Shown: positions 5,306-26,739 of the stretch, piece after piece
Position numbering within the stretch: position 1 is the first letter of the stretch
How the letters are laid out: each line of letters begins with the position of its first letter
Source: Pantoea sp. Lij88
Lineage (GTDB): Bacteria > Pseudomonadota > Gammaproteobacteria > Enterobacterales > Enterobacteriaceae
DNA: 64,000 bases
Assembly: GCF_030062155.1 (NCBI RefSeq)
Contig: NZ_CP118267.1
Span: forward strand, 248,001 to 312,000
Reading direction: 5' to 3'
Notes under the pieces: model-generated
Database searches by the model: none
Told to the model about the DNA's origin: nothing
The model's input: only the letters and a program-made list of their open reading frames with translations
Program-made: the position numbers and the translations under genes

Positions 5306-5581
5306 TTCAAAGATCCTATTTAGTCGTACAAATCACTGTCTGAATATACAGATAAAGGTCCTTGTTTCCAGCCTTATTTTTCTGTTTTGTCTGCTATTTG
5401 CGCTAATGTGGCTCAATGTCTCCTTTTGGTACGAAGCAGGCGTGTACTTCAGGGCTATTAGTGCGCTACGAGCAAGAAGGGACATGATTATCTGCAATTT
5501 TGGTCGAGAATCTATGCTCTTAGAAAACTATCGCCGCCTAAGCGTCCAGATTTACCTTTTGTTATAAAGGAAGTAACACTA

Positions 5582-6022
5582 ATGAATATAAATATCAGAC
5601 CCGCTCAATTATCCGATGTTGAGAGTATTTTCACTGTCAGAACATCTGTTAACGAAAATCACCTGGGCCGTGAAGAGATGCGGAAGATGGGCATCACTGA
5701 AAGTAGCGTGGGGGATATGATCGAAAAGAGTTATTGCACATGGGTTGCAACAAATGATGAAGAAGTGGTCGGTTTTTCGATGATTTTAACGGAGAAAGGC
5801 TGTCTTTATGGTCTTTTTGTTCTGCCTGCCTATGAAGGCAGAGGCATCGGACGCAGACTGACCCTGCTGGCGGAACAGGAGTTGTTCAGACATCACGACA
5901 TTGCCTGGCTGGAAACGGATGGAAATAGCCGCGCCGCGAAATTCTATATGCAACTCGGCTGGGGCAATAAGACAAAGATAGATGGCGATTTTATCCGGTT
6001 AGAGAAGCATCGGGATGCCTGA
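5582..6022 (+). CDS. GNAT family N-acetyltransferase
   Basis: A 146-residue acetyl-CoA-dependent N-acetyltransferase. The N-terminus IRPAQLSDVESIF is the classic opening of the fold. The cofactor loop is YEGRGIGRRLTLLAE (about residues 84-98), and the end AAKFYMQLGWGNK is the standard last helix and strand. A ribosome site (AAGGAAG) sits 8 bases before the ATG. It is transcribed away from the minus-strand GNAT gene at 4868-5305, but the two proteins are clearly different subfamilies and not a recent duplication. Substrate unknown. Confidence 0.87.
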   Translation: MNINIRPAQLSDVESIFTVRTSVNENHLGREEMRKMGITESSVGDMIEKSYCTWVATNDEEVVGFSMILTEKGCLYGLFVLPAYEGRGIGRRLTLLAEQELFRHHDIAWLETDGNSRAAKFYMQLGWGNKTKIDGDFIRLEKHRDA

Positions 6023-6384
6023 ATTTCTTCCACACTCATCGGGTTTCACTTCAGGCCCCAGTAAGCTTAACGTATTTGTCCTGAGGCAAAATATGTCATT
6101 GCCAGTTTGAATGACGAGACGTAAAAAGGATTATTTCAAAGGCTATCCATATTTTGCTGGAGGTTTTATAAATCCTCACCCAATCATGATGTCAGCGATA
6201 TTAGGCGCTTAGTCATAATTAGATAAACGTGACAAAATTACAGGGATATTTGAATGGTGATGAGCTTCCACCGATAAGATGTTGCTTCACTGAACTCACA
6301 ACACTCATTTCACGATTACCACAGACTGAAAAATCGCGATAGCCCATTACAGCCATGAATCCCTGATGCCCTGCTCGTTTTACA
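6023..6384. other. Intergenic, no gene seen
   Basis: About 360 AT-rich bases between convergent genes. I see no ORF with a ribosome site and no strong hairpin followed by a T-run. Confidence 0.5.
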
Positions 6385-7638
6385 TTACGCATCCTGCAGA
6401 CGCGCGAGCATGCGGTTTCTGTAAGCGTAGATGATTGCGCATAGCAACAGGCTGAGCAACGCAGTACAGATAAAGACTCCTGCCCCGGTCATCGCCAGCA
6501 TCACTCCACCGATTAACGGCCCGACAGCGATCCCCAGTGTCGATAGCATAGAGGCACCCAGGTAGGCGCCACGATGCTCTGCCGGGGCCAGCTGATCGAG
6601 CAAAATGTTCAGGTTTGGCATCAGAATCGCTTCTCCCACACTGAACACACTGGTCACGGTAAGCCAAAGCCAGATCTCCGTTGAACGTGTACAAAAAAAG
6701 CAGATCTGCGATAGCGCGAAAATAAATCCACCGATAAGAATGCGTTTCGGCAGGGAAATGGCGGCAAGAAACCGCATGATAAACGTCTGAAACACCAGAA
6801 CGGTGCAGGCATTTGTCACCAGTATCAGTGTAATCAGCTTAATCGCAGCGTTGCCATTAAGTAACAGGAGGTATTGCGGCAGAATGGCTTCGTAGTGGAT
6901 AAAAATCACACTGCACAAAATGCTGCACAGTAGCGCCGCAATATAAATTTTATCTCTCGCAATGATGCCAATGACCTGATGCAGTTTAACCGTTACCCCG
7001 CTCCCATCCTGCGGCTCATTCAGCAGTTTTCCTGCGGGGATAAACAGCAGCACATAAACGAAAAAAGGAATATAGGTCAGCCCGGTGATCAGAAAGGTGC
7101 CCTTTTGTGAGGTCAGGCCAAATGCAATTCCGACCAGCGGACCGAATACCGCCGCGACGTTAATAAGGTAATAGCGCATTTGCAGGGCAAGCGCACGGCG
7201 ACGGCGGTCCACCAGCAAATCACTCATCAGTGCGCGCAGCGGCGGATCAACCCATGCAAAGGAAACGCCAATAACCATCAGGCCAGTAATAAACAGCCCC
7301 ATCCCGTCGGCCTGCGCAAGAAGACTATATCCCAGAGCTGAAAACCCGCAGCCCAGCATAAGAATGACGCGTCGTCCCAGTCTGTCTGAAATCTGCCCAC
7401 CGTACATGCCGAGCACCACCGAGAACAGTGCGCTGCTGGTCATTGCCACGCCAATGGCGATCGGCGACATATGATAATTCTGCGTCATGATTACGGCGAT
7501 AAATGGCCAGGCCATGAAATAGCTGAAGCGTATGACCAGCGTAAAAAAGAGCAGCGCATGGACTGTCGCCGGAAAAGATTTCAGCGTCCGGAATAATCCC
7601 GATTCCGGACACTCCTCAGCGGCAGGTCTGGTAGTCAT
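6385..7638 (-). CDS. Major facilitator superfamily transporter, drug-efflux type
   Basis: A 417-residue inner-membrane transporter with twelve predicted hydrophobic segments. The loop between helices 2 and 3 carries the MFS signature GGQISDRLGRRVI (about residues 80-92). WVDPPLRALMSDLL after helix 4 resembles the MdtH/drug:H+ antiporter group, which makes efflux of a small compound the likeliest role. I do not assign a symbol because similarity to MdtH is only general. It stands alone with about 420 bases of non-coding DNA upstream, so it has its own promoter. No adjacent regulator is apparent. Confidence 0.85.
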   Translation of the reverse strand: MTTRPAAEECPESGLFRTLKSFPATVHALLFFTLVIRFSYFMAWPFIAVIMTQNYHMSPIAIGVAMTSSALFSVVLGMYGGQISDRLGRRVILMLGCGFSALGYSLLAQADGMGLFITGLMVIGVSFAWVDPPLRALMSDLLVDRRRRALALQMRYYLINVAAVFGPLVGIAFGLTSQKGTFLITGLTYIPFFVYVLLFIPAGKLLNEPQDGSGVTVKLHQVIGIIARDKIYIAALLCSILCSVIFIHYEAILPQYLLLLNGNAAIKLITLILVTNACTVLVFQTFIMRFLAAISLPKRILIGGFIFALSQICFFCTRSTEIWLWLTVTSVFSVGEAILMPNLNILLDQLAPAEHRGAYLGASMLSTLGIAVGPLIGGVMLAMTGAGVFICTALLSLLLCAIIYAYRNRMLARLQDA

Positions 7639-11282: not shown

Positions 11283-12740
11283 ATGACAAGACCATTCTTA
11301 TGCCCGGCACTTGCGGTAACAGTGGCGCTGGCGTCGTCATTTGCCTTGGCGGGACAAGCGCCTTATGCCGCGTCTGCGGCGGACATCAGCGTGAGTCATC
11401 GCGATCGCGTATACGCGGCAGAGCAGTTCTCCAATACCGTTTCTGTTACCGATCCCGCCAGCAATACGCTGCTCGGCGTAATTAAACTGGGTGATGCGCA
11501 GCCTGCCAACCTTAGCCCGCTCTATAAGGGCCAGGTGCTGGTGCATGGCATGGGCTTTTCCCCCGATGGTAAAACCCTGGCCGTTGTTTCGATTGGCTCC
11601 AACTCTGTCAGCCTGATTGATACCGCGACCAACGCGGTGAAACATGTGACCTATGTAGGCCGTTCACCGCATGAGGCGTTTTACACCCCGGACGGCAAAG
11701 AAATCTGGGTTACCGTGCGCGGTGAAGATTATGTCGCGGTGCTTGATGGCACCAGCGGCGAAGAGAAAACGCGGATTAAAGTGCCAGGCGGTCCGGGTAT
11801 GCAGATTTTCTCACCGGACGGCCAATACGGTTACGTCTGCTCCTCCTTCAACCCTGAAACGGTGGTGGTGGATGTTAAAGAGCATAAAATTATCGGCAGC
11901 ATCAAACAGGCCAGCCCGTTCTGTCCCAACATAGCCGCCACGCCTGATGGCAGGCAGGTATGGTTCACGCTTAAAGATGTCGGTAAAGTGCAGGTGTTCG
12001 ACGCACGTCCACCCTTTACGCTGCTGAAAACCATTGATAGCGGTCCGATCACTAACCACGTCAATATCGTGCATAACGCCAAAGGCACCTTTGCTTACGT
12101 CACCATCGGTGGCCTGAACAAAGTGAACGTTTACCGCACCGATGATTTCAGTCAGGTCGCGACCATTCCGGTGGGCAATCTGCCACACGGCGTCTGGCCG
12201 TCAGGTGACGGCAGTCGTGTCTATGTCGGTCTTGAAAACGCCGACGCCTTAACGGCGATTGATACCCTGAGCAATAAAGTGATCGCAACCATTCCCATTG
12301 GTCAGGCGCCGCAGGCGGTGGTCTATGTCCCCAATGCCGTGCCGCAGGGCGACGGTAAGCAGAACCTGGTGCCGTTGGGCCTGGCAGGTTTTGCCGCCCA
12401 CCTGACGCTGAAAGCGGTTAATGCCGCGAAAGGGGCGCAGCCTGCAACCACGCTGACCCTGTTCGATCAGGGGCTGACCCAGGTGTTGCAGGCGTCTGCC
12501 ACCGGCCTGGAACCGAAGCAGGCTTATCTACTGGCGCTGTCGTCAAATGCTGAAGGAAAAGGTGAGCTGGAGCCACTGGCGCAATTTATGACCAACCCGG
12601 CCGGTGCAGCCATCGTCAATGCTGTCGGTCCGATTCGTCAGGTGGTGGATAGCCATCATGCAGATGAACGCCGCTACCTGGTGATTTTGGAAGGCACCGT
12701 CGATCAGCACGGCAAACCGGTGCAGGTTCAGATGCGTTAA
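11283..12740 (+). CDS. YncE-like periplasmic beta-propeller protein
   Basis: A 485-residue secreted protein: a signal peptide (VALASSFALAG), then about seven YVTN-type propeller blades up to residue 350. Repeated blade motifs are visible, such as FSPDGKTLAVVS, YTPDGKEIWVT, FSPDGQYGYV and VWPSGDGSRVYVG. E. coli YncE is about 350 residues, so this protein carries an extra C-terminal domain of some 130 residues of unknown role. Such proteins sit in the periplasm and often accompany DUF305 proteins and metal-responsive two-component systems, as here. Its biochemical function is not known. A terminator follows the gene. Confidence 0.87.
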   Translation: MTRPFLCPALAVTVALASSFALAGQAPYAASAADISVSHRDRVYAAEQFSNTVSVTDPASNTLLGVIKLGDAQPANLSPLYKGQVLVHGMGFSPDGKTLAVVSIGSNSVSLIDTATNAVKHVTYVGRSPHEAFYTPDGKEIWVTVRGEDYVAVLDGTSGEEKTRIKVPGGPGMQIFSPDGQYGYVCSSFNPETVVVDVKEHKIIGSIKQASPFCPNIAATPDGRQVWFTLKDVGKVQVFDARPPFTLLKTIDSGPITNHVNIVHNAKGTFAYVTIGGLNKVNVYRTDDFSQVATIPVGNLPHGVWPSGDGSRVYVGLENADALTAIDTLSNKVIATIPIGQAPQAVVYVPNAVPQGDGKQNLVPLGLAGFAAHLTLKAVNAAKGAQPATTLTLFDQGLTQVLQASATGLEPKQAYLLALSSNAEGKGELEPLAQFMTNPAGAAIVNAVGPIRQVVDSHHADERRYLVILEGTVDQHGKPVQVQMR

Positions 12741-12758
12741 CCCCGCTTTGCCGCTGTA

Positions 12759-12789
12759 AGCCAGATTCACATAGGGGATCTGGCTTTTT
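12759..12789 (+). terminator. Rho-independent terminator after beta-propeller gene
   Basis: The 8-bp arms AGCCAGAT and ATCTGGCT with an 11-base loop are followed directly by a T-run. This ends the DUF305/beta-propeller operon and faces the convergent DUF6886 gene. Confidence 0.85.
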
Positions 12790-12822
12790 ATTGTCACGCT
12801 ATCCTGCTCATCAGTCATAAGT

Positions 12823-13404
12823 TTATACGATCACTGGGCGGCCCGGCTTCGAATGCGTCCACCCCGGTTTGCCCCAGTCCTGTGCATTTCTCAATCTGAT
12901 GCCGCTGGCGTGAAGTGATGACTGCCAGATACTTTTGAGTGGCGTAAGCCTGTCCATTACACGAAGCGTGATATTTCGTAATGCCAGCTCTGCATCTAGG
13001 CTGGAAATCACCCTGACGTCAGTCGGGACAACATTTTTTCGCGATACCCACATACCGACCTCACCGGTTGGTTCAAAGTCCTGTACTGGCATTTCATATC
13101 TGTAAACTTTTCCACTTTGAAAGCGTGAAAGCCATGCGTGCTCAATACAGGCAATGGCAGTGGCATGGGAGTGGCTGCCCATCCATCGTTCCAGGTCTGA
13201 AAGGTTCGTGTCCGGCAGAGACCAGGACACGATACGAGGGCACTCACGGGGGAAAAGATAAAGTAATTCGTGCGCTTCATCCGTAGCCCATACGAGTGAC
13301 CCGTTTAGCCACTCCAGCCCCGCTGGCCTCTCGACATGAATCCTTATCGGGCGGGGTTTGAATAGTGAGATATCAGGACTATCGCTGAAATGGAAAAGAC
13401 GCAC
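12823..13404 (-). CDS. DUF6886 family protein
   Basis: A 193-residue cytoplasmic protein. The opening MRLFHFSDSPDISLFKPRP is characteristic of the DUF6886 family, whose members begin with this 'phone-book' motif (LxHFSD) and have no assigned reaction; the fold recalls ADP-ribosyl-transferase-like RES/RolB proteins but I cannot show that here. Later parts include LVWATDEAHELLYLFP and FEPTGEVGMWVS. It stands alone, converging with the beta-propeller operon. A homolog search against DUF6886 would settle the call. Confidence 0.75.
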   Translation of the reverse strand: MRLFHFSDSPDISLFKPRPIRIHVERPAGLEWLNGSLVWATDEAHELLYLFPRECPRIVSWSLPDTNLSDLERWMGSHSHATAIACIEHAWLSRFQSGKVYRYEMPVQDFEPTGEVGMWVSRKNVVPTDVRVISSLDAELALRNITLRVMDRLTPLKSIWQSSLHASGIRLRNAQDWGKPGWTHSKPGRPVIV

Positions 13405-19499: not shown

Positions 19500-20306
19500 T
19501 TAACAGCCCTCTTCCCGTGCGGCCCGTGGCGCAATTTCATCATCGGTGATGATCTGATCGTCAAGCCCTTTAACCATCACATGACGCAGCACGCCGCTGA
19601 ACGCGCGCTCAAGATTGGCAGCGGTAAAGGTGCTCCGGGTCGGGCCGCTGGCCAGAACGGTGCCTTTAACCATCACGGTGTAATCGCAGAACGTTGTGAC
19701 TGACCCCAGATTATGCGTTGAGACCAGCATGGTCTTGCCTTCATCGCGTAGCTCACCCAGCAGGCTGATGATTCTGGCCTCGGTCTGTACATCCACGCCA
19801 GTAAACGGCTCGTCCAGCAGGATGACGCTACCCTGCTGGGCAATCGCACGCGCCAGAAACACCCTTTTCTTCTGTCCGCCAGAGAGTTCGCCGATCTGGC
19901 GATGGCGATAATCCAGCATATCGACCCGCGTGAGCGCCTTACTGACAATCTGCTGGTCGTGCGGTTCAGGCCGGCGCAGCAGGCCCATGTGACCGTAGCG
20001 CCCCATCATCACCACATCTTCTACCAGCACCGGAAATGACCAGTCCACCTCTTCCGATTGCGGCACATAAGCGACAAGGCTTTTACGCAGCGCCTGGCGC
20101 GTTGGCATGCCCAGCACCGAGATACTGCCGCTGGCGAGACGGACAAAACCCATCAGCGCTTTGAACAGCGTTGACTTGCCTGATCCATTCACGCCCACCA
20201 GGGCAGCAATCGATCCGCCCGGCACGCTGAAACTGGCGTCGTGCAGCGCGGTATGCCCGTTGCGATAGGTGACGGTGACGTCGGAAACCACGATAGTGTC
20301 TGTCAT
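19500..20306 (-). CDS. sitB: Mn/Fe ABC transporter ATP-binding protein SitB
   Basis: A 268-residue ABC ATPase. Walker A is GVNGSGKST (about residues 38-46), the signature is [15 protein letters not shown], and Walker B is [12 protein letters not shown], followed by the H-loop histidine in LVSTHNLGS. It powers SitCD. Its start overlaps the end of sitA (ATGA) and sitC begins two bases after its stop. Expected to respond to manganese and iron through the operator upstream of sitA. Confidence 0.96.
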
Positions 20307-21217
20307 TGTGCTTTCTCTCCCGTTTTGATGCCCTGCACCAGCGTTTCAGTGGTGACGCGGAGCAGATCAAGGTAGGTCGGCACCGGTCCCTGAGCGTTGC
20401 TTAAGGAATCGACATAAAGCACGCCACCGTAGTGCGCACCGGTTTCCCGTGCGACCTGACGGGCGGGTTTATCCGACACCGTGCTCTCACTGAACACAGC
20501 CGGAATAGCATTTTTCTTCACCTGATCGATCACTTTTCTCACCTGCTGCGGCGTGCCCTGCTGGTCCGCATTGATCGGCCACAGATAAAGCTCTTTCATC
20601 CCCAGGTCACGTGCCAGATAGGAGAAGGCGCCTTCGCTGGTCACCATCCAGCGTTTATCCTCCGGGATGTCTGCAATCTGCTGACGTAACGGGTCCAGCG
20701 CGGCGGTAATTTTTTGTTTATAGGCGGCGGCGTTCTGACGATAGGTGTCTGCATGAGCCGGGTCATATTTCACCAGCGCATCGCGAATGTTATCGACGTA
20801 GATCAGCGCATTGTCGGGTGACATCCAGGCGTGCGGGTTCGGTTTACCGTTGTACGGTCCCTCACCTATGCCCATGGGTTTGATTCCCGCCGAGACAATC
20901 ACTTCCGGCACCCCGTCCAGATGCTGATAAAAGCGCTGAAACCAGAGTTCCAGATTGAGCCCGTTCGCCATGATCAACTGCGCGCCCTGCGCCCGCTTGA
21001 TATCGCCGGGTGTCGGCTGATATTCGTGTATTTCAGCCCCCGGTTTGGTGATGGAGGTGACCTCTGCGGCATCGCCCGCCACGTTCTTTGCCATATCAGC
21101 AATCACGGTAAAGGTCGTCACTACCTTAAATTTTTCTGCTGCATAACTGCTGGCTGTCATCAGGGTTGTCAGCAGCGCACTGAGTAACAGGGTGGTGATT
21201 TTTTTTATCGGCACCAT
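20303..21217 (-). CDS. sitA: Mn/Fe ABC transporter periplasmic binding protein SitA
   Basis: A 304-residue cluster A-I metal-binding protein, first gene of the operon. The signal peptide ends at ASSYAAEKF. Metal ligands of the family are at the expected places: the His in [13 protein letters not shown], the His in [11 protein letters not shown], the Glu in [11 protein letters not shown] and the Asp in LYVDSLSN. This His-His-Glu-Asp set fits Mn(II)/Fe(II) rather than zinc, whose carriers have a His-rich loop that is absent here. Two MntR-like boxes lie 37-72 bases upstream of its start. Confidence 0.95.
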
Positions 21218-21253
21218 CGGGCGATCTCCAGAGGCGATTAAAAAGAGAACATA

Positions 21254-21289
21254 AATAGCACAGGCTATTTTTTATAGCACAGGCTATAC
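21254..21289 (-). promoter_or_regulatory. Two tandem MntR-type operators in the sitABCD promoter
   Basis: Two perfect inverted repeats with the same core: arms AAATAGC/GCTATTT around ACAG at 21254-21271, and TATAGC/GCTATA around ACAG at 21274-21289. The shared core TAGCACAGGCTA matches the known enterobacterial MntR box (ATAGCA-nn-GGCTAT type). Centres are 19 bp apart, so two dimers could bind the same face of the helix at about two turns. This predicts repression by manganese. Confidence 0.8.
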
Positions 21290-21674
21290 CTTTGCGACAG
21301 AGCAGGGTTGTGAAGTTTATTCAGCGTGATGAGCCGGGTGTGAAGTTTTGTAAATCGTGGTGGTTAATTATTGATGTGTAACGATTTTAATTTACTGATA
21401 AATAACAGCAGCAAAGGGATGGGCACGGCTTCACCCCCATTTCACAGCCCTTAAGACTCCGGCGAGGTCGGTTGCAGAAGCGGGAACAGGATTAAAAGGA
21501 GCCTGGCCACGGCTGCCGTTCAGGGGAAGAGAATCTGTTGCCGGTTTACACCTGCGTCTGGTGTACAGAAGTTCGACAATTAAAATAATCTTATTGATAG
21601 GCTGAATTGATTAAGCTTCGTGAATTTTTTTGCTACAGTTAATGTTACTTACCGCAATCACCCAGGAGGATAAT

Positions 21675-21968
21675 TTGTATTTTTCCAGCGACGAAAAAGC
21701 GAATGTCATCATTGGCGAAGCCGCAATGAACCTGTTTAATGCCGGTCAGGAAGTTAATGTTGAACTGCTGATTAAAGAGCTACAGGTTATGGCAGAGTCT
21801 GAAGTAAATGAGCATCGTCTTGAGCTAATGCAGCATGCGCGTCAATGGCTGATGGGGTTCAAAACCATCGGTTCGCGTAGCACCGCCCCGGCAAACTGGC
21901 TTTCCAGTACTTTTGGCACAGAGCCGGTTGCGCCTGTCTCTGCTGATGACATCTTTTTTAAACACTGA
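21675..21968 (+). CDS. AriR/YmgA-like small regulatory protein 1
   Basis: A 97-residue protein of the AriR/YmgA (YmgB) type, small all-helical dimers that act as connectors on two-component phosphorelays and affect biofilm and acid resistance. I chose the TTG at 21675 because AGGAGG lies five bases before it, and because the resulting start (MYFSSDEK) lines up with the MYRSEDEK start of the paralog at 22658; the ATG at 21630 lacks a ribosome site. The family core is IIGEAAMNLFNAGQEVNVEL then LIKELQVMAESE and RLELMQHARQWLM. A C-terminal tail of about 35 residues is extra. A hairpin overlaps the stop codon. Confidence 0.7.
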   Translation: MYFSSDEKANVIIGEAAMNLFNAGQEVNVELLIKELQVMAESEVNEHRLELMQHARQWLMGFKTIGSRSTAPANWLSSTFGTEPVAPVSADDIFFKH

Positions 21969-21983
21969 TCCGAGTGTTTAATC
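21960..21983 (+). terminator. Probable terminator overlapping a stop codon
   Basis: Arms AAACACT and AGTGTTT around GATCCG, followed by AATC, with the TGA stop at the top of the left arm. A second near-palindrome (CCTGAATATTCAGG core, 21989-22010) follows. Confidence 0.5.
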
Positions 21984-22161
21984 CCCTGCCGGCCTGAATA
22001 TTCAGGTCGGAGCGTCCGGGGAGCTGTTAAAGATTCAAAAATCTGGTACAATTTTCACCTCGCACTAACCCCCTCGTAACACCCTGTTTTAAAAGCAATA
22101 GCATTTTTTGCACCAAAAAAATTATCCCAAAAATCCAAAATCCTGTACAAGTTTTGAAAAG

Positions 22162-22194
22162 ATGTATAACTTGCGCTACCAGAGCGCTATACAT
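22162..22194. promoter_or_regulatory. Nested inverted repeat upstream of AriR-like gene 2
   Basis: Arms ATGTATA (22162-22168) and TATACAT (22188-22194) enclose a second pair GCGCT/AGCGC. It lies 24-56 bases before the start codon in an AT-rich promoter region. Candidate operator or 5' UTR hairpin; the regulator is unknown. In E. coli the ycgZ-ymgA-ariR genes are repressed by BluR, but I cannot show the same site here. Confidence 0.35.
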
Positions 22195-22217
22195 TTTAAC
22201 CTCCTGAGGACAACAAG

Positions 22218-22463
22218 ATGCGTCAGAACGGACAAGCCCCGGAAACGATCAGCGATATTGCCCGTTACTTCAATCAGGCCAGCTCCCCTTTGCAACAGGA
22301 GACGCTGGGCACGGTTGTTGTTGAAATTCTGCGCGCAGGTCACAGCCTCAGTCGTAAAACGATTTGCAGCAAGCTGTTGCGCCGCCTCGAACTGGCAGAA
22401 ACGCCAGAAGAAGAGAGCCACCTGCAGGATTTAATCGCGATGCTGTTCCGTCGCGAAGAGTGA
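22218..22463 (+). CDS. AriR/YmgA-like small regulatory protein 2
   Basis: An 81-residue AriR-like protein. It opens with ISDIARYFNQASSPLQQETL, comparable to the ALASYFRSSG-type opening of E. coli AriR, and the core continues GTVVVEILRAGHSLSRKTIC, then KLLRRLELAETPEEE and LQDLIAMLF. The start has CCTGAGGA just upstream. The protein should be a cytoplasmic helical dimer without its own DNA-binding motif. It is one of five related genes in 2.3 kb, each with its own spacing, so they are probably separate transcription units. Confidence 0.75.
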   Translation: MRQNGQAPETISDIARYFNQASSPLQQETLGTVVVEILRAGHSLSRKTICSKLLRRLELAETPEEESHLQDLIAMLFRREE

Positions 22464-22657
22464 TATCCCCCACGGCCGTAAGTGTTTTCAGGACGCCTGC
22501 TTTACGCTTTCACCCAGGAAGATCGACCTAAGTTCTACCCAGGCCTTACCGTAATAAAAGCCCAGTACTGCTTTCCCGTATCCGGTGCGCGAAGTCGCAC
22601 CCGCTGACGTATACGGACCCGCAGCATGGCCATTGATTCGCAATCAGAGAAGCCAGT

Positions 22658-22951
22658 ATGTACAGAAGTGAAGATGAGAAACTGACAGATGTCATGATCG
22701 GCGAAGCCGTTCTGACATTGCTCAAGTCAGACAAGCCGGTATCCAGCGATGCCTTAATCACACAGCTCGAACTGATGGCAGCGGAGGCGGATGATGACAG
22801 TAAAGTCTCCGTCATACGCAAAGCCATCACTGAAGTCCGAAACGGCATGGTCGCCGCGCGGAAGCGCGTGCAGGGTGACGGCGCTGAACGTGATAAGCAG
22901 ACTCATCGTATGAACAGTGATGGACCGCCAGAGGGTTCCAAGAAGCACTGA
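22658..22951 (+). CDS. AriR/YmgA-like small regulatory protein 3
   Basis: A 97-residue member of the same family. The core VMIGEAVLTLLKSDKPVSSD, then ALITQLELMAAEADDD and VSVIRKAITEVRNG aligns along its length with the protein encoded at 21675 (shared MYxSxDEK start, IGEA, L-ELMAE), so these two are the closest pair in the cluster. The tail (about residues 70-97) is charged and probably disordered. The ribosome site is only moderate (AGAGAAG). Confidence 0.72.
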   Translation: MYRSEDEKLTDVMIGEAVLTLLKSDKPVSSDALITQLELMAAEADDDSKVSVIRKAITEVRNGMVAARKRVQGDGAERDKQTHRMNSDGPPEGSKKH

Positions 22952-23120
22952 CTGAGCGGGCTGCATGCCTGTTAAGCGCGGCTGACTATAAGCGAAGCGG
23001 CAGAACTGAACAGAATTTTTTTAGGCTGGCTGGGCAAAACGAAAACAGCGTCTACACTCGTTTTTGACTTCAACCATTAACCATTGCGTCTGACCCCTTT
23101 TCCTCAGAGAAAGAAAAATC

Positions 23121-23375
23121 ATGCAACATTCTTCATCAGATTCTTCAATCATTGATTATTTTCGCAGCGCAGGTGATCAGCTTGCTCCGGAAACCGAACT
23201 GCTGGGCGCAGTGATTCGTGACATTGTGGCTGACCAGGGACGTGTAACCAACAAAGCGATCATCCTCTATCTGATCGCAGAACTGGAATGCACTTCCGAT
23301 GAGGTCAGACTGGACCTGTTGCGCAGGACGCTGGAAATCGTCGTGGGTCGTACCCCGGACGATACCGGCATCTGA
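23121..23375 (+). CDS. ariR: AriR (YmgB) homolog, small regulatory protein 4
   Basis: An 84-residue protein and the one most like E. coli AriR/YmgB: IIDYFRSAGDQL near the start, ETELLGAVIRDIV, VTNKAIILYLIAELECTSDE, and the end DLLRRTLEIVVGRTPDD matches the VIRKTLEIVLRYTADDM ending of AriR almost position by position. AriR is a dimeric connector that influences biofilm formation and acid resistance. The start has GAGAAAGAAAAATC upstream. A 13-bp hairpin follows the stop. The symbol is given on overall similarity and could be shared by paralogs. Confidence 0.78.
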   Translation: MQHSSSDSSIIDYFRSAGDQLAPETELLGAVIRDIVADQGRVTNKAIILYLIAELECTSDEVRLDLLRRTLEIVVGRTPDDTGI

Positions 23376-23381
23376 TCCCTC

Positions 23382-23410
23382 ATCCTGCGCTATCCGCGAT
23401 AGCGCAGGAT
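23382..23410 (+). terminator. Strong hairpin after ariR-like gene
   Basis: Perfect 13-bp arms (ATCCTGCGCTATC and its complement) around CGC, 7 bases after the stop codon. A TTTT run follows only 10 bases later. Confidence 0.6.
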
Positions 23411-23768
23411 ACTCTCCCGCTTTTAAAGCGTCTTAAATTTCCGCGTTAATTAGCACAGAGATGAGCTCTTTATAAAACTCTGCCACAGGCGACTGATATT
23501 GCTGACATTAAGAATAGTGTGGATGCAATAAGGTGAGAGACTAAAATTAACTACTCTGCCTGAAATGTTCGTTATCAATATTTCATCATGACCTGTCAGG
23601 CACATCATCTCCTGTCCCGAAAATAAAATTCAGCATGCTTAAAATAAGCAGAAGTTAATGCGCGTCAGTATTATTCAATGCGTCTTATTCTCAGACAGAG
23701 TCAGGGATTGAGGGGGGATGTTCCGGGGTTGAGGTTCAGGATGGCGCCCGCCATCGGCGCCATCAACC
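23411..23768. other. Intergenic, with a hairpin at its right end
   Basis: About 330 AT-rich bases without a supported ORF. At 23740-23764 the 9-bp arms GATGGCGCC and GGCGCCATC form a stem 5 bases beyond the stop of the minus-strand gene and may act as its terminator, though there is no T-run. Confidence 0.45.
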
Positions 23769-23963
23769 TTAATGCATTTTGCGGATGAAAAAGCCTATCG
23801 CTTCCTGACACAATGCTTTCAGTCTGCTATCACGCGTCTCTTCGCTCAGGCGAAACAGGGCGTCCGTAATGTCGTGAAAATGAACCGGCTCTCCTGCCTT
23901 GATCAAATCACTGACCACCGCACCAACCAGCGCACGGATCTCGTTATCGTTGTCGTACTTCAC
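23769..23963 (-). CDS. AriR/YmgA-like small regulatory protein 5
   Basis: A 64-residue member of the family on the opposite strand. The core EIRALVGAVVSDLIKAGEPV then DITDALFRLSEET and LKALCQEAIGFFI aligns with the other four proteins (LGxxVxxLxxAG, then two short helices). I chose the GTG at 23963 because GGGAGG lies four bases before it; the ATG at 23987 would add MHTPSGGR, which is just the translated ribosome site. It is the shortest of the five and lacks the N-terminal extension. Confidence 0.68.
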   Translation of the reverse strand: MKYDNDNEIRALVGAVVSDLIKAGEPVHFHDITDALFRLSEETRDSRLKALCQEAIGFFIRKMH

Positions 23964-24334
23964 ACGACCTCCCGATGGTGTATGCATATACAGTCTATCA
24001 TTAGCGGGAACTAAAAAACAAAAAAGCCGTTGCCGCGTAAATATAAGCGAAGCGGCAAAGAGGTTATTAATTGTACTGGCCCGGAATATTATCCGGATTT
24101 ATTTCAGCCCGGATTATCACCTGCCCGATAAATAACAAAAATAGTGGAATAACCGCTGCCATTTTTTTTGTTGTGAAAGGTAAACCGGACCGTTTAATAG
24201 TGTGATTAATTCCCCCTTCAGGGCAGATTTAAAACCCACGTTTTAAACCCTTCTGCATTCCTGATCCGCACGCCAGACAGCACCGCCAGCAGTATGATAA
24301 AACTGTCGTTATCCTCTGATGTCGCGAGTCGCGC
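23964..24334. other. Divergent intergenic region, contains repeated 16-mer
   Basis: Shared upstream region of the fifth AriR-like gene and the LacI gene. It holds TATAAGCGAAGCGGCA at 24042-24057, identical to 22987-23002 upstream of ariR-like gene 4, here as part of a GCCGC/GCGGC stem. Otherwise AT-rich with no ORF. Confidence 0.5.
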
Positions 24335-25351
24335 ATGGCTAAATTCACCCTGAAACAGATCGCTGCCCAGTCGGGCCTCAGCCTGGCCACCATCGATCGT
24401 GCCCTGCATCAGCGAGGCAACGTGCATGCCCGCACGCAGCACCGCATCCAGCAGGCGATAGCGGACCTGGAACTGATGCAAAAAGCGGGGCTGGCCAGGG
24501 GAAGAACGCTTTACTTCGACGTCATCATGCATACCCCGGACCGCTTTCAGCCACTGATACGTGAGGCGCTCAGCAGTCAGATTGCCAGCTTTGCGGCCTT
24601 CAGACTTCAGCTGCGTTTCCACTTCGGCGCGCATCTCACCGCGGAAGCGATCAATGCGCTGCTGAACAAAAAAGCGTTTCACAGTCACGGCGTCATTCTG
24701 AAAGCGGCCTGTTGCGGCGAGCTTAACCCCACGATTGAGTCACTGCTGAAACAACGTGTTCCGGTGGTCACCATGATGAGCGATTTACCCGACAGCGCAC
24801 GCCTGCGCTATATCGGCATGGATAATTTTGATGCCGGTAAGGTGGCGGCATTTCTGATGTCTAAATGGCTGCGGGTGAGCCGGTCGCATATCGTGGCAGT
24901 AACCGGCAGTCGCGATTTCATTGGCGAACAGGAGAGGATTGAGGGTTTTCAGCGAGCGATGAAGCAGTTTGCCCCCCAGCATCAGGTGAGTGTGGTAGCA
25001 GGCGGGTATGGCATTGATGAGCGGATGCATCAGTCGGTATCGCAGTTTCTGCAGAGCCATCCGGATGTGGATGCGGTCTATACGGTCGGCGGCGGCAATC
25101 CCGGCATACTGCGCGCGTTTGCTGAACAAAAGCGCCAGGTGCATGCCTGCATCGGTCACGATCTCGATCAGGAGAATTGTGCCCTGCTGCAGTCCGGTAA
25201 AATTGATGCGCTCATCGAGCATAATTTACAGCTCGATGCGCTGCACGCCTTCAGAACGCTGCTGGAGTTTCATGGCTTTCTGCCTGCATCAGAACCGCCT
25301 GCGCCCTACTCCAAAATCAACATCATCACCCGATACAACATGACGGCCTGA
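24335..25351 (+). CDS. LacI-family transcriptional regulator
   Basis: A 338-residue repressor. The N-terminal helix-turn-helix reads FTLKQIAAQSGLSLATIDRA, with the LacI hinge helix region following less clearly. The rest is a type-1 periplasmic-binding fold for a sugar-like effector: VILKAACCGELN, then YIGMDNFDAGKVAAFLMSKW and VYTVGGGNPGI are typical elements. The group with AARGxx-poor hinge and PBP4-type effector domain usually senses polyols or sugars. The neighbouring cupin gene 85 bases downstream on the same strand may be co-transcribed, but no sugar genes are adjacent, so the target is unknown. Confidence 0.88.
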   Translation: MAKFTLKQIAAQSGLSLATIDRALHQRGNVHARTQHRIQQAIADLELMQKAGLARGRTLYFDVIMHTPDRFQPLIREALSSQIASFAAFRLQLRFHFGAHLTAEAINALLNKKAFHSHGVILKAACCGELNPTIESLLKQRVPVVTMMSDLPDSARLRYIGMDNFDAGKVAAFLMSKWLRVSRSHIVAVTGSRDFIGEQERIEGFQRAMKQFAPQHQVSVVAGGYGIDERMHQSVSQFLQSHPDVDAVYTVGGGNPGILRAFAEQKRQVHACIGHDLDQENCALLQSGKIDALIEHNLQLDALHAFRTLLEFHGFLPASEPPAPYSKINIITRYNMTA

Positions 25352-25436
25352 AACGCGCACAGATCACTAAACCGGGTTAATCCCTCTCCGGCCCGCAGGC
25401 TACACTTCAACTCATCCTTAGCAGCAGGAGTCAGTT

Positions 25437-25832
25437 ATGAAAATTATCGCCAGCGGTTCGCAACCTTCCCGTAAAGGGCCAGCAGACTATTTTACCGGCA
25501 CGGTCAGGATTGATGCACCCTTCCAGGCAACAGAGCCTGCCCGCGTGGGTGGGGCGACGGTGACCTTTGAACCGGGCGCCCGAACCGCCTGGCATACTCA
25601 TCCGCTGGGGCAGACCCTGATCATCACGCAGGGTCAGGGCTGGATCCAGTGTGAGGGTGAGGCCATTCAGGTGATGAATACCGGAGACATCGTCTGGATC
25701 CCGGAGAATGTGAAGCACTGGCATGGCGCAACGCCGGATAACGCCATGACGCACATTGCTATCGCTGAGTCACTGAATGGCTCGCCGGTTGACTGGCTGG
25801 AGCACGTCACCGATCAGCAATATCAGCGCTGA
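25437..25832 (+). CDS. Cupin-domain protein similar to bacterial hydroxynitrile lyase-like cupins
   Basis: A 131-residue single-domain cupin. The first cupin motif is [20 protein letters not shown] (two His and a Gln ligand, residues about 51-60) and the second is KHWHGATP (His near 92). Sequence and length closely follow the manganese cupin hydroxynitrile lyase described from Granulicella tundricola ([13 protein letters not shown] near the start and the [11 protein letters not shown] end). Most such proteins are annotated only as carboxymuconolactone decarboxylase-associated cupins, and cyanohydrin cleavage may be a side activity. Function in this organism is open. Confidence 0.85.
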
Positions 25833-25854
25833 TTAGCAGAGCATTCTGCCCTCT

Positions 25855-26739
25855 TCACAGCCTGACGTGATCGATCAGCGCCCTTAGCTTTGGGGCCAGG
25901 TTTTTACGGCTGGGGAAATAGAGATAGAACCCGGCGAAGGCGGGCAGCCACTCATCCAGTAAAGTCACCAGTTCGCCACGCGCAATATACGGCTGGAAAG
26001 TTTCTTCCATGCCAAAACTGATGCCGCCTCCCGCGCAGGCGGTGCGAATCATCACCCCCATGTCATTGGTGGTGAGCTGCGGATTGACGGCGACATCAAA
26101 CTCACGTCCTCGCTCCGCGAACTCCCAGCGATAAGGCGCCAGGCCCGGACCTTTTCGCCAGCCGATGCAGCGATGATTCACCAGCTCTTCGGGATGGTGC
26201 GGCGTGCCTGCCCGCGCCAGATAGGCAGGGGACGCCACCGCGACCTGACGCTGCGCGGTGGAAACCGGCACCGCAATCATATCCTGCGCAATCACTTCGC
26301 CCAGCCGCACGCCCGCGTCATAGCCCTGCCCGACAATATCAAATTCCTCATCGGTGACGGTGATATCCAGCTCCACCTGCGGATAAGCGGTAATAAAGCT
26401 CGCCAGCAGCTCTCCCCCCAGCATCCGCTCCGCAATTGAGGAGATCGCCAGCCGCAGCTGGCCGCGCGGCTCAGCCGCCAGTTCCGCGATATCGGTGACG
26501 GCGCGGTTGAGCTGGCTGATAGCTGGCGCCACCTCGGCATAGAGCTGCTGTCCGGCTTCGGTCAGCTGCACCGAGCGCGTGGTGCGCTGCATCAGCGTGA
26601 TGTTCAGCCGGTCTTCCAGCCGCCGCAGACTCTGACTGATCGCCGGACGCGTGACGCCCAGCTGTTCTGCTGCCAGCCGGAAATTTCGGGTCTGCGCCAC
26701 AATCACAAAAACTTCGAGAGCATTTTTATCGGTATTCAT
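25855..26739 (-). CDS. LysR-family transcriptional regulator
   Basis: A 294-residue LysR regulator. The helix-turn-helix is FRLAAEQLGVTRPAISQSLR, followed by the conserved ITLMQRTTRSVQLTEAGQQL. The effector domain (RGQLRLAISSIAERMLGG onwards) is of the same CrgA/DsdC-like type as the regulator at 14514. It is divergent from the SDR gene at 26839, with only 99 bases between the two starts, so both promoters and operator must overlap. The SDR is the likely target. Confidence 0.92.
   Translation of the reverse strand: MNTDKNALEVFVIVAQTRNFRLAAEQLGVTRPAISQSLRRLEDRLNITLMQRTTRSVQLTEAGQQLYAEVAPAISQLNRAVTDIAELAAEPRGQLRLAISSIAERMLGGELLASFITAYPQVELDITVTDEEFDIVGQGYDAGVRLGEVIAQDMIAVPVSTAQRQVAVASPAYLARAGTPHHPEELVNHRCIGWRKGPGLAPYRWEFAERGREFDVAVNPQLTTNDMGVMIRTACAGGGISFGMEETFQPYIARGELVTLLDEWLPAFAGFYLYFPSRKNLAPKLRALIDHVRL

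Follow-up and report, generated by a model that had tools for sequence, protein, structure and literature searches.

We report here that five small genes (g1 to g5) of Pantoea sp. Lij88 are probably organized as a five-slot version of the Escherichia coli ycgZ-ymgA-ariR operon, in which one BluR-type input would be passed on to many outputs on RcsC and SpoT. They lie in a 64,000-nucleotide (nt) stretch of DNA, called the window below, that corresponds to C1:248001-312000, where C1 (634 kb) is one of the three contigs (C1 to C3) of a 4.74-Mb genome. The initial annotation of this DNA had placed five small genes (64-97 codons, four on the plus strand and one on the minus strand) at 21675..23963, where the open reading frames (ORFs) were indeed found, and had proposed several connectors serving different sensors. 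What we found in place of the latter is one conserved cassette with a shared operator, which points to a single input with diversified outputs. This reverse of the earlier proposal appears to be the best-supported view, because the cassette slots are fixed, because the operator stands upstream of ycgZ but is absent ahead of g3, g4 and g5, and because it recurs ahead of two solo ariR genes and the genome's four further clear ycgZ genes.

Results

Gene order and age of the slots

Cassettes were mapped by running four family profiles, described below, over fetched neighbourhoods. The order ymgA-type, ycgZ, ymgA-type and ariR, followed by a g5-type gene in convergent orientation, was found in 10 copies in 7 genomes, namely in the window, at L083 and L084 (both in genome G097), twice each at L087 (Siccibacter turicensis, G264) and L088 (S. 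colletis, G364), and at L089 (G257), L091 (G163) and L094 (G210); in reading these counts, L087/L088, like L093/L096, are near relatives and L037-L039 are near-copies. Serratia sp. M24T3 has one further full cassette. At L093 and L096, ycgZ-ymgA-ariR faces g5 and a slot-1-type gene lies on the far side; at L085, g5 faces ycgZ; Mixta tenebrionis has ycgZ, ymgA and g5, and Rouxiella silvae (G430) has g5 alone in the stretch. A second variant in the genome of the window, at C1:193-196k (5242-7683 of L028, which is C1:188000-200000), has ycgZ-ymgA-ariR together with one more ymgA-type gene and, in convergent orientation, a g5-type ORF. Both Siccibacter genomes carry a bluF homologue (57-59% identity) between two tandem cassettes. 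We also observed that one of the two cassette ariR copies of S. turicensis (L087:8106-8351) is broken by a stop codon. On this comparison, g1 to g5 are the slots of one conserved cassette and not a loose array, and g2-g3-g4 agree with the E. coli operon in gene order and in the subfamily of each gene.

In a maximum-likelihood tree of 33 YmgA-type proteins, in which 8 of the 33 rows have long branches, all 12 slot-1 proteins were split from all 14 slot-3 proteins by a branch with a support of 96/99, and E. coli YmgA fell on the slot-3 side. Because the proteins of the two slots split on this tree, the slots are indicated to be older than the copies of the cassette. The same grouping bears on the idea that g3 is a sigma-S-stabilizing anti-adaptor of the IraP kind and not an Rcs connector, as might be suggested by 2 of 50 g3 homologues having a UniRef name that starts with 'Sigma-S stabilisation/stabilization anti-adaptor pro'. 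However, none of 43 YmgA-type rows, including P0044, one of the two proteins so named, matched an anti-adaptor family in Pfam at E ≤0.01, and g3 is grouped with E. coli YmgA by slot, homology and tree, so that this identity for g3 is hardly credible.

Family membership of the five proteins

Two of the five proteins are recognized by existing models. The Pfam family PF10798 (YmgB/AriR; curated cut-off, 22.3 bits) is passed by g4 with 86.9 bits and by g2 with 24.8 bits; the NCBIfam model NF040640 (YcgZ; cut-off, 80 bits) is passed by g2 with 121 bits, g4 remaining below at 21.4 bits. In sequence comparison with the structure of E. coli YmgB (PDB 2OXL), g4 gave 2.7e-9. Neither Pfam nor NCBIfam recognized g1, g3 or g5 as family members, the Pfam scan giving no PF10798 match for any of them, and at E ≤0.01 PF10798 matched 1 of 43 YmgA-type and 1 of 24 g5-type rows.

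The profiles of g1 and g3 detected each other in their own genome, in addition to ORFs beside other ycgZ and ariR genes. Family alignments were built for the YmgA-type (9 rows), YcgZ (5), AriR (34) and g5-type (16) proteins; rows used in building a profile score well with that profile by construction. Profile-profile comparison by hhalign gave 2.8e-17 for AriR-YcgZ, 7.7e-8 for g5-YmgA, 3.3e-7 for g5-YcgZ, 3.8e-7 for g5-AriR, 3.2e-6 for YmgA-AriR and 1.2e-3 for YmgA-YcgZ, the scores of the 6 pairs ranging from 21.9 to 86.2 against a maximum of 18.8 in 60 column shuffles per pair. One of the 12 reversed controls (YcgZ against reversed g5) reached 20.9, near the weakest real pair, and the homology of YmgA and YcgZ therefore leans mainly on the other pair links. 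These comparisons indicate that the four subfamilies are homologous, and it is through profile-profile comparison only that g1, g3 and g5 are filed in the same superfamily. Thus the family assignment of the initial annotation, which expected at least four of the five in one family, holds for all five at the level of hhalign, but a single Pfam model takes in g2 and g4 only.

The convergent fifth gene

A cassette gene lies 3' of 14 of the 18 g5-type genes; it is convergent with the g5-type gene in every one of the 14, and in 12 of these it is ariR. The gap to the 3' neighbour is 30-172 nt, except in the window, where it is 393 nt. The g5 profile matched 13 of 295 genomes, the match in G419 (a long frame with an internal stop) being probably due to chance. 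These data place g5 in a separate convergent slot, as an unnamed subfamily, and not as one more tandem copy. An unrelated small gene lying by chance beside ariR would be consistent with g5 of the window having no Pfam YmgB match and, as in 5 of 24 relatives, a sub-threshold SAF match as its best Pfam hit, and with the 4 of 18 relatives (L086, L090, L092 and L095) in which the fetched stretch shows no cassette gene 3' of g5. This is very improbable, given the uniform orientation above and the homology of the g5 profile to all three other subfamilies; the same profile picks up two frames of other subfamilies as well, one of YcgZ in another Pantoea (0.0026; 3.0e-6 with PF10798 for that frame) and one of AriR elsewhere (0.0095).

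Two other identities for g5 were rejected. As a SAF protein (PF08666) it scored 19.3 bits over 24 residues against a cut-off of 21, and as for E. coli ymgC as its counterpart, no profile reports ymgC at E ≤0.05, and ymgC is on the ariR strand. Two g5 homologues, P0083 and P0088 (64 and 72 amino acids), carry source names that look like misannotations ('glycogen/starch/alpha-glucan phosphorylase' and 'SAF domain-containing protein, partial').

A shared promoter-operator before ycgZ

The sequence TGTACA was present 55-100 nt before all 19 ycgZ genes, E. coli included, vs 1 of 71 other cassette genes, where the 18 AriR rows include two pieces of one broken gene (Fisher test, 1.4e-18; this figure and the shuffle figures treat related sequences as independent). 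In the genome of the window it preceded 5 of 5 ycgZ genes vs 0 of 15 other cassette genes. The exact 26-base pattern TGTACA-N14-GTATAA occurred at 8 sites in this genome (reversed control, 0) and at 36 sites over 12 genomes (reversed control, 1). Each of the 8 sites has a family gene within 900 nt, namely five ycgZ genes, two solo ariR genes and one ORF at C3:2092.7k, the weak one among them; this diverged YcgZ-like ORF (L130, from ~2694; YcgZ profile, 1.7e-5) was found via its operator at C3:2092693-2092718. Of the 36 sites, 30 precede a family gene, 4 precede the RNA-gene candidate described below alone, and 2 precede neither. Behind one of these last two operators (L099, G210:C1:364546-364571) lies an ORF with KGG repeats, which presumably resembles YciG-type stress proteins.

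In E. coli (PMC3509220), GTACA half-sites of the ycgZ promoter are protected by BluR, the transcript begins 36 nt upstream of ycgZ, and Northern blotting showed a single mRNA for the operon. A GTACA-type operator, as a BluR regulon would have it at the ycgZ promoter, is present here as sequence. The likely -10 element TATAAC ends 47 nt before g2, and a transcript start ~41 nt before g2 would therefore be expected. A sigma-70 consensus scan did not list this site.

Over 21000-24800 the consensus scan found 2 promoter-like sites vs 4.0 expected and 7 terminator-like sites vs 3.9 expected (standard deviation, 1.9). One of the promoter-like sites, at 21562-21589, lies before g1, which may have a start of its own. 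Hairpins were found behind g1 (-28.4 kcal/mol), g4 (-25.9), g5 (-24.0), g3 (-20.9) and g2 (-13.9), none with a T run directly behind it. Separate promoters and terminators for all five genes, as first annotated, were rejected on these scan counts, on the operator standing only before ycgZ and on the missing T runs. For the terminators, a part may hold, since stable hairpins lie behind g1, g4 and g5, those behind g3 and g2 being weaker. It is strongly supported by the sequence comparisons that the conserved promoter-operator is the one before g2, with none of the BluR type before g3, g4 or g5.

The same observations bear on the model in which the five connectors are controlled separately and each serves a sensor of its own. 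The long intergenic gaps, the hairpins behind g1, g4 and g5 and the promoter-like site before g1 would fit it, but the operator lies only before ycgZ, promoter-like sites are below chance expectation, the slot order is fixed across genera, and the E. coli operon is a single transcript; we therefore regard separate control as distinctly improbable.

Family copies and an RNA-gene candidate

The genome contains ~21 family genes, of which 12 are on C1 and 9 on C3: 8 YmgA-type genes (the one at C3:1175k being weak, taken in at E 0.20), 5 AriR genes, 6 YcgZ-type genes (with the diverged one at C3:2092.7k) and 2 g5-type genes. PF10798 was found in 102 of the 295 genomes of a family-level sample, where three Pantoea genomes have 9, 9 and 10 matches and all others ≤7, and in 6 of the 148 genomes of an order-level sample.

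A conserved element of ~95 nt follows the operator at both solo ariR genes and recurs at related loci elsewhere; at the two solo ariR sites, among the 8, this RNA-gene candidate comes first and then ariR. It has three matches in the genome of the window, L003:1274-1366 on the plus strand (C3:2206787-2206879), L001:1223-1316 on the plus strand (C3:2568642-2568735) and C3:1673948-1674043 on the minus strand. For two helices in 13 sequences, 18 pairs form in 98.3% of cells vs 93.2% in shuffles, and 5 pairs have changes on both sides, a value as high in 1 of 500 shuffles and ≤1 in slid controls; further pair types, one of the five measures, were not above shuffles (277 of 500 as high). A model of the candidate matched 37 of 295 genomes, 36 of them with PF10798, the weaker matches being less sure. 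An Rfam search of six loci with or near the candidate gave two matches below the gathering score, outside the candidate and judged to be chance, and Rfam gave no match over 20000-26000 of the window. A blastn search of the candidate and its promoter against 20,395 E. coli records gave no match.

Features of the locus and its replicon

The structure of the locus (Table 1) is nearly certain. Megablast of the region 21400-24340 matched 71 plasmid records, every one from Pantoea, and on account of these matches the replicon C1 is very probably a large Pantoea plasmid; none of the 71 records holds 80% of the region in one place, the best having 75% coverage at 87.7%. On the P. agglomerans plasmid NZ_CP122321.1, RefSeq annotates the same five genes with the same lengths, with names for ycgZ and ymgB/ariR only, the counterparts of g1, g3 and g5 being hypothetical proteins. 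The ratio of nonsynonymous to synonymous substitution rates against this plasmid was 0.25 for g1, 0.10 for g2, 0.08 for g3, 0.03 for g4 and 0.05 for g5, the last based on 10 synonymous and 2 other changes, indicating that the five genes are real and under purifying selection. Judged by eye, g1, g2 and g5 have a clear ribosome-binding site, and g3 and g4 a weaker one. For g5 there is also an in-frame ATG further upstream, at 23987; RefSeq picks the start equivalent to GTG in P. agglomerans. An exact 16-nt direct repeat, TATAAGCGAAGCGGCA, is present upstream of g4 (22987-23002) and upstream of g5 (24042-24057), with a third copy at L133:8320, in a stretch of C2 that holds two bluF homologues.

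Table 1. Positions in the window of the cassette genes and of the elements between them.
Feature	Position	Strand	Remarks
g1, slot 1, YmgA-type, 97 amino acids, TTG start	21675..21968	+	slot-1 side of tree
Palindrome 3' of g1, stable hairpin without run of T	21989..22010	.	
Promoter-operator TGTACA-N14-GTATAA before ycgZ, putative BluR-type site	22144..22169	+	
TATAAC, likely -10 element of ycgZ promoter-operator	22165-22170		
g2, slot 2, YcgZ, 81 amino acids	22218..22463	+	NF040640 1.8e-35; PF10798 24.8 bits
g3, slot 3, YmgA-type, 97 amino acids, positional counterpart of E. coli ymgA	22658..22951	+	slot-3 side of tree
g4, slot 4, AriR/YmgB, 84 amino acids, R74-equivalent arginine kept	23121..23375	+	PF10798 7.9e-25; PDB 2OXL 2.7e-9
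Hairpin 3' of ariR, perfect 13-bp stem, possible terminator	23382..23410	+	
g5, slot 5, 64 amino acids, unnamed subfamily, convergent to ariR, GTG start	23769..23963	-	

Discussion

In E. coli, YcgZ, YmgA and YmgB interact with one another and contact the kinase domain of RcsC (PMC6900184), YmgB acts on Rcs independently of RcsF (PMC11451591), and YmgB binds SpoT via R74, separably from Rcs (PMC10704370). The E. coli connector proteins activate Rcs, with less curli and biofilm as the result (PMC3509220, PMC6900184); the initial annotation, which had them dampen Rcs-type signalling, gave this direction in reverse. An RcsC domain was found in 12 of 12 genomes examined. All 34 AriR rows, a count that takes in near-copies, carry the R74-equivalent arginine, g4 and the 4 other AriR proteins of the genome among them; no such arginine was seen by eye in the g5-type rows of the family alignment, which is not a computed count. 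By homology, therefore, the Pantoea proteins may act on RcsC and SpoT.

By analogy with E. coli, a BluR-type repressor of the MerR family would hold the ycgZ promoter down, and BluF homologues would release it under blue light and cold. The small helical proteins would then form mixed complexes acting on the kinase domain of RcsC, AriR would also push SpoT towards synthesis of guanosine tetraphosphate (ppGpp), and the cell would turn from curli and biofilm to capsule and slow growth. Most speculatively, slot 5 could act as a counterweight, whether it pairs with other members or is itself restricted by convergent transcription while the cassette is on.

The genome encodes one close BluR homologue (62.6% identity to BluR and 53.4% to MlrA, where BluR and MlrA share 48.1%) and a second, distant BluR-related protein (21%). 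Its three BLUF proteins are 58, 51 and 47% identical to BluF; the genes of two of them are close together on the 160-kb contig C2 (L133, C2:66000-84000, at 5496-6725 and 11650-12879), and the remaining one is at L132:4802-6013. A shared BluR-type input is likely on this and the operator evidence. Several points weigh against the five-slot reading with one BluR-type input. Neither bluF nor bluR lies beside the cassette of the window. The exact operator pattern has 0 sites in G264, G364 and G430, 3 of the 12 genomes, the two cassettes each of G264 and G364 having TGTACA but a different -10 region. The gaps g2-g3 (194 nt) and g3-g4 (169 nt) are longer than those of E. coli (42 and 28 nt), and g3 and g4 could therefore have starts of their own. 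In addition, RpoS and MarA also regulate the ycgZ promoter of E. coli (PMC6900184), so that a conserved sequence need not mean BluR alone.

In line with this last point, the site of the same cassette might serve a regulator other than BluR, either an MlrA-like activator or the sigma-S/MarA machinery alone, with stationary phase or cyclic di-GMP as the input in place of light. The GTACA core is common to the MlrA site, and E. coli ycgZ is sigma-S dependent (both PMC3509220) and MarA-activated (PMC6900184). However, the only close MerR homologue of the genome is nearer to BluR than to MlrA, and PF10798 is present in 72 of 78 BLUF-bearing genomes, a count uncorrected for genome kinship. We consider such a change of regulator unlikely and keep to the BluR-type input.

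The five-slot reading might be extended to a wide fan-out, in which one BluR-type repressor, receiving its signal from three homologues of the photoreceptor BluF, controls promoters on two contigs. These promoters would drive ~20 mutually pairing connectors as well as a small RNA not described before, each cassette would have its built-in antagonist in the convergent fifth protein, and the combination of Rcs and ppGpp outputs would be set by light and cold. This extension is tentative, and we hold it to be rather doubtful.

The present analysis makes the regulon definable by one 26-base pattern, all 8 of whose sites in this genome precede a family gene, and exposes an RNA-gene candidate missing from Rfam. 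It also gives a family and a context to three genes (g1, g3 and g5) that are hypothetical in the RefSeq annotation of P. agglomerans. The slots predating the copying of the cassette, together with the constancy of the arginine in the AriR slot, suggest an old division of labour among connector paralogues, for the testing of which the slot sets are natural material.

With respect to known systems, g4 resembles both PF10798 and 2OXL and g2 the Pfam model, whereas g1, g3 and g5 lie outside that model. The bluF-bluR units of Klebsiella pneumoniae and Enterobacter sp. 638 with ycgZ-ymgAB-like genes (PMC3509220) are described as the same functional unit outside E. coli, and the text section of that paper which describes them makes no mention of dispersed copies, of a further ymgA-type gene or of a fifth gene in convergent orientation. 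Among the titles and abstract openings listed in literature searches, we found no paper dealing with Pantoea copies of these genes or with a convergent fifth gene, which does not establish their absence from print. The closest likeness is to the ycgZ-ymgA-ariR(ymgB)-ymgC operon of E. coli K-12, in the order ycgZ-ymgA-ariR, in the subfamily of each gene and in the TGTACA/GTACA site, ~74 nt before ycgZ. The Pantoea cassette differs in its wider spacing, in lacking ymgC and in that bluR and bluF lie at other loci of the genome. Of the five slots, E. coli K-12 has 2-4, whereas Pantoea adds slot 1 before ycgZ and the convergent slot 5 after ariR, and with ~21 family genes vs the three reported by the profiles in the E. 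coli stretch, its set is, as the initial annotation had held, both larger and more diverged.

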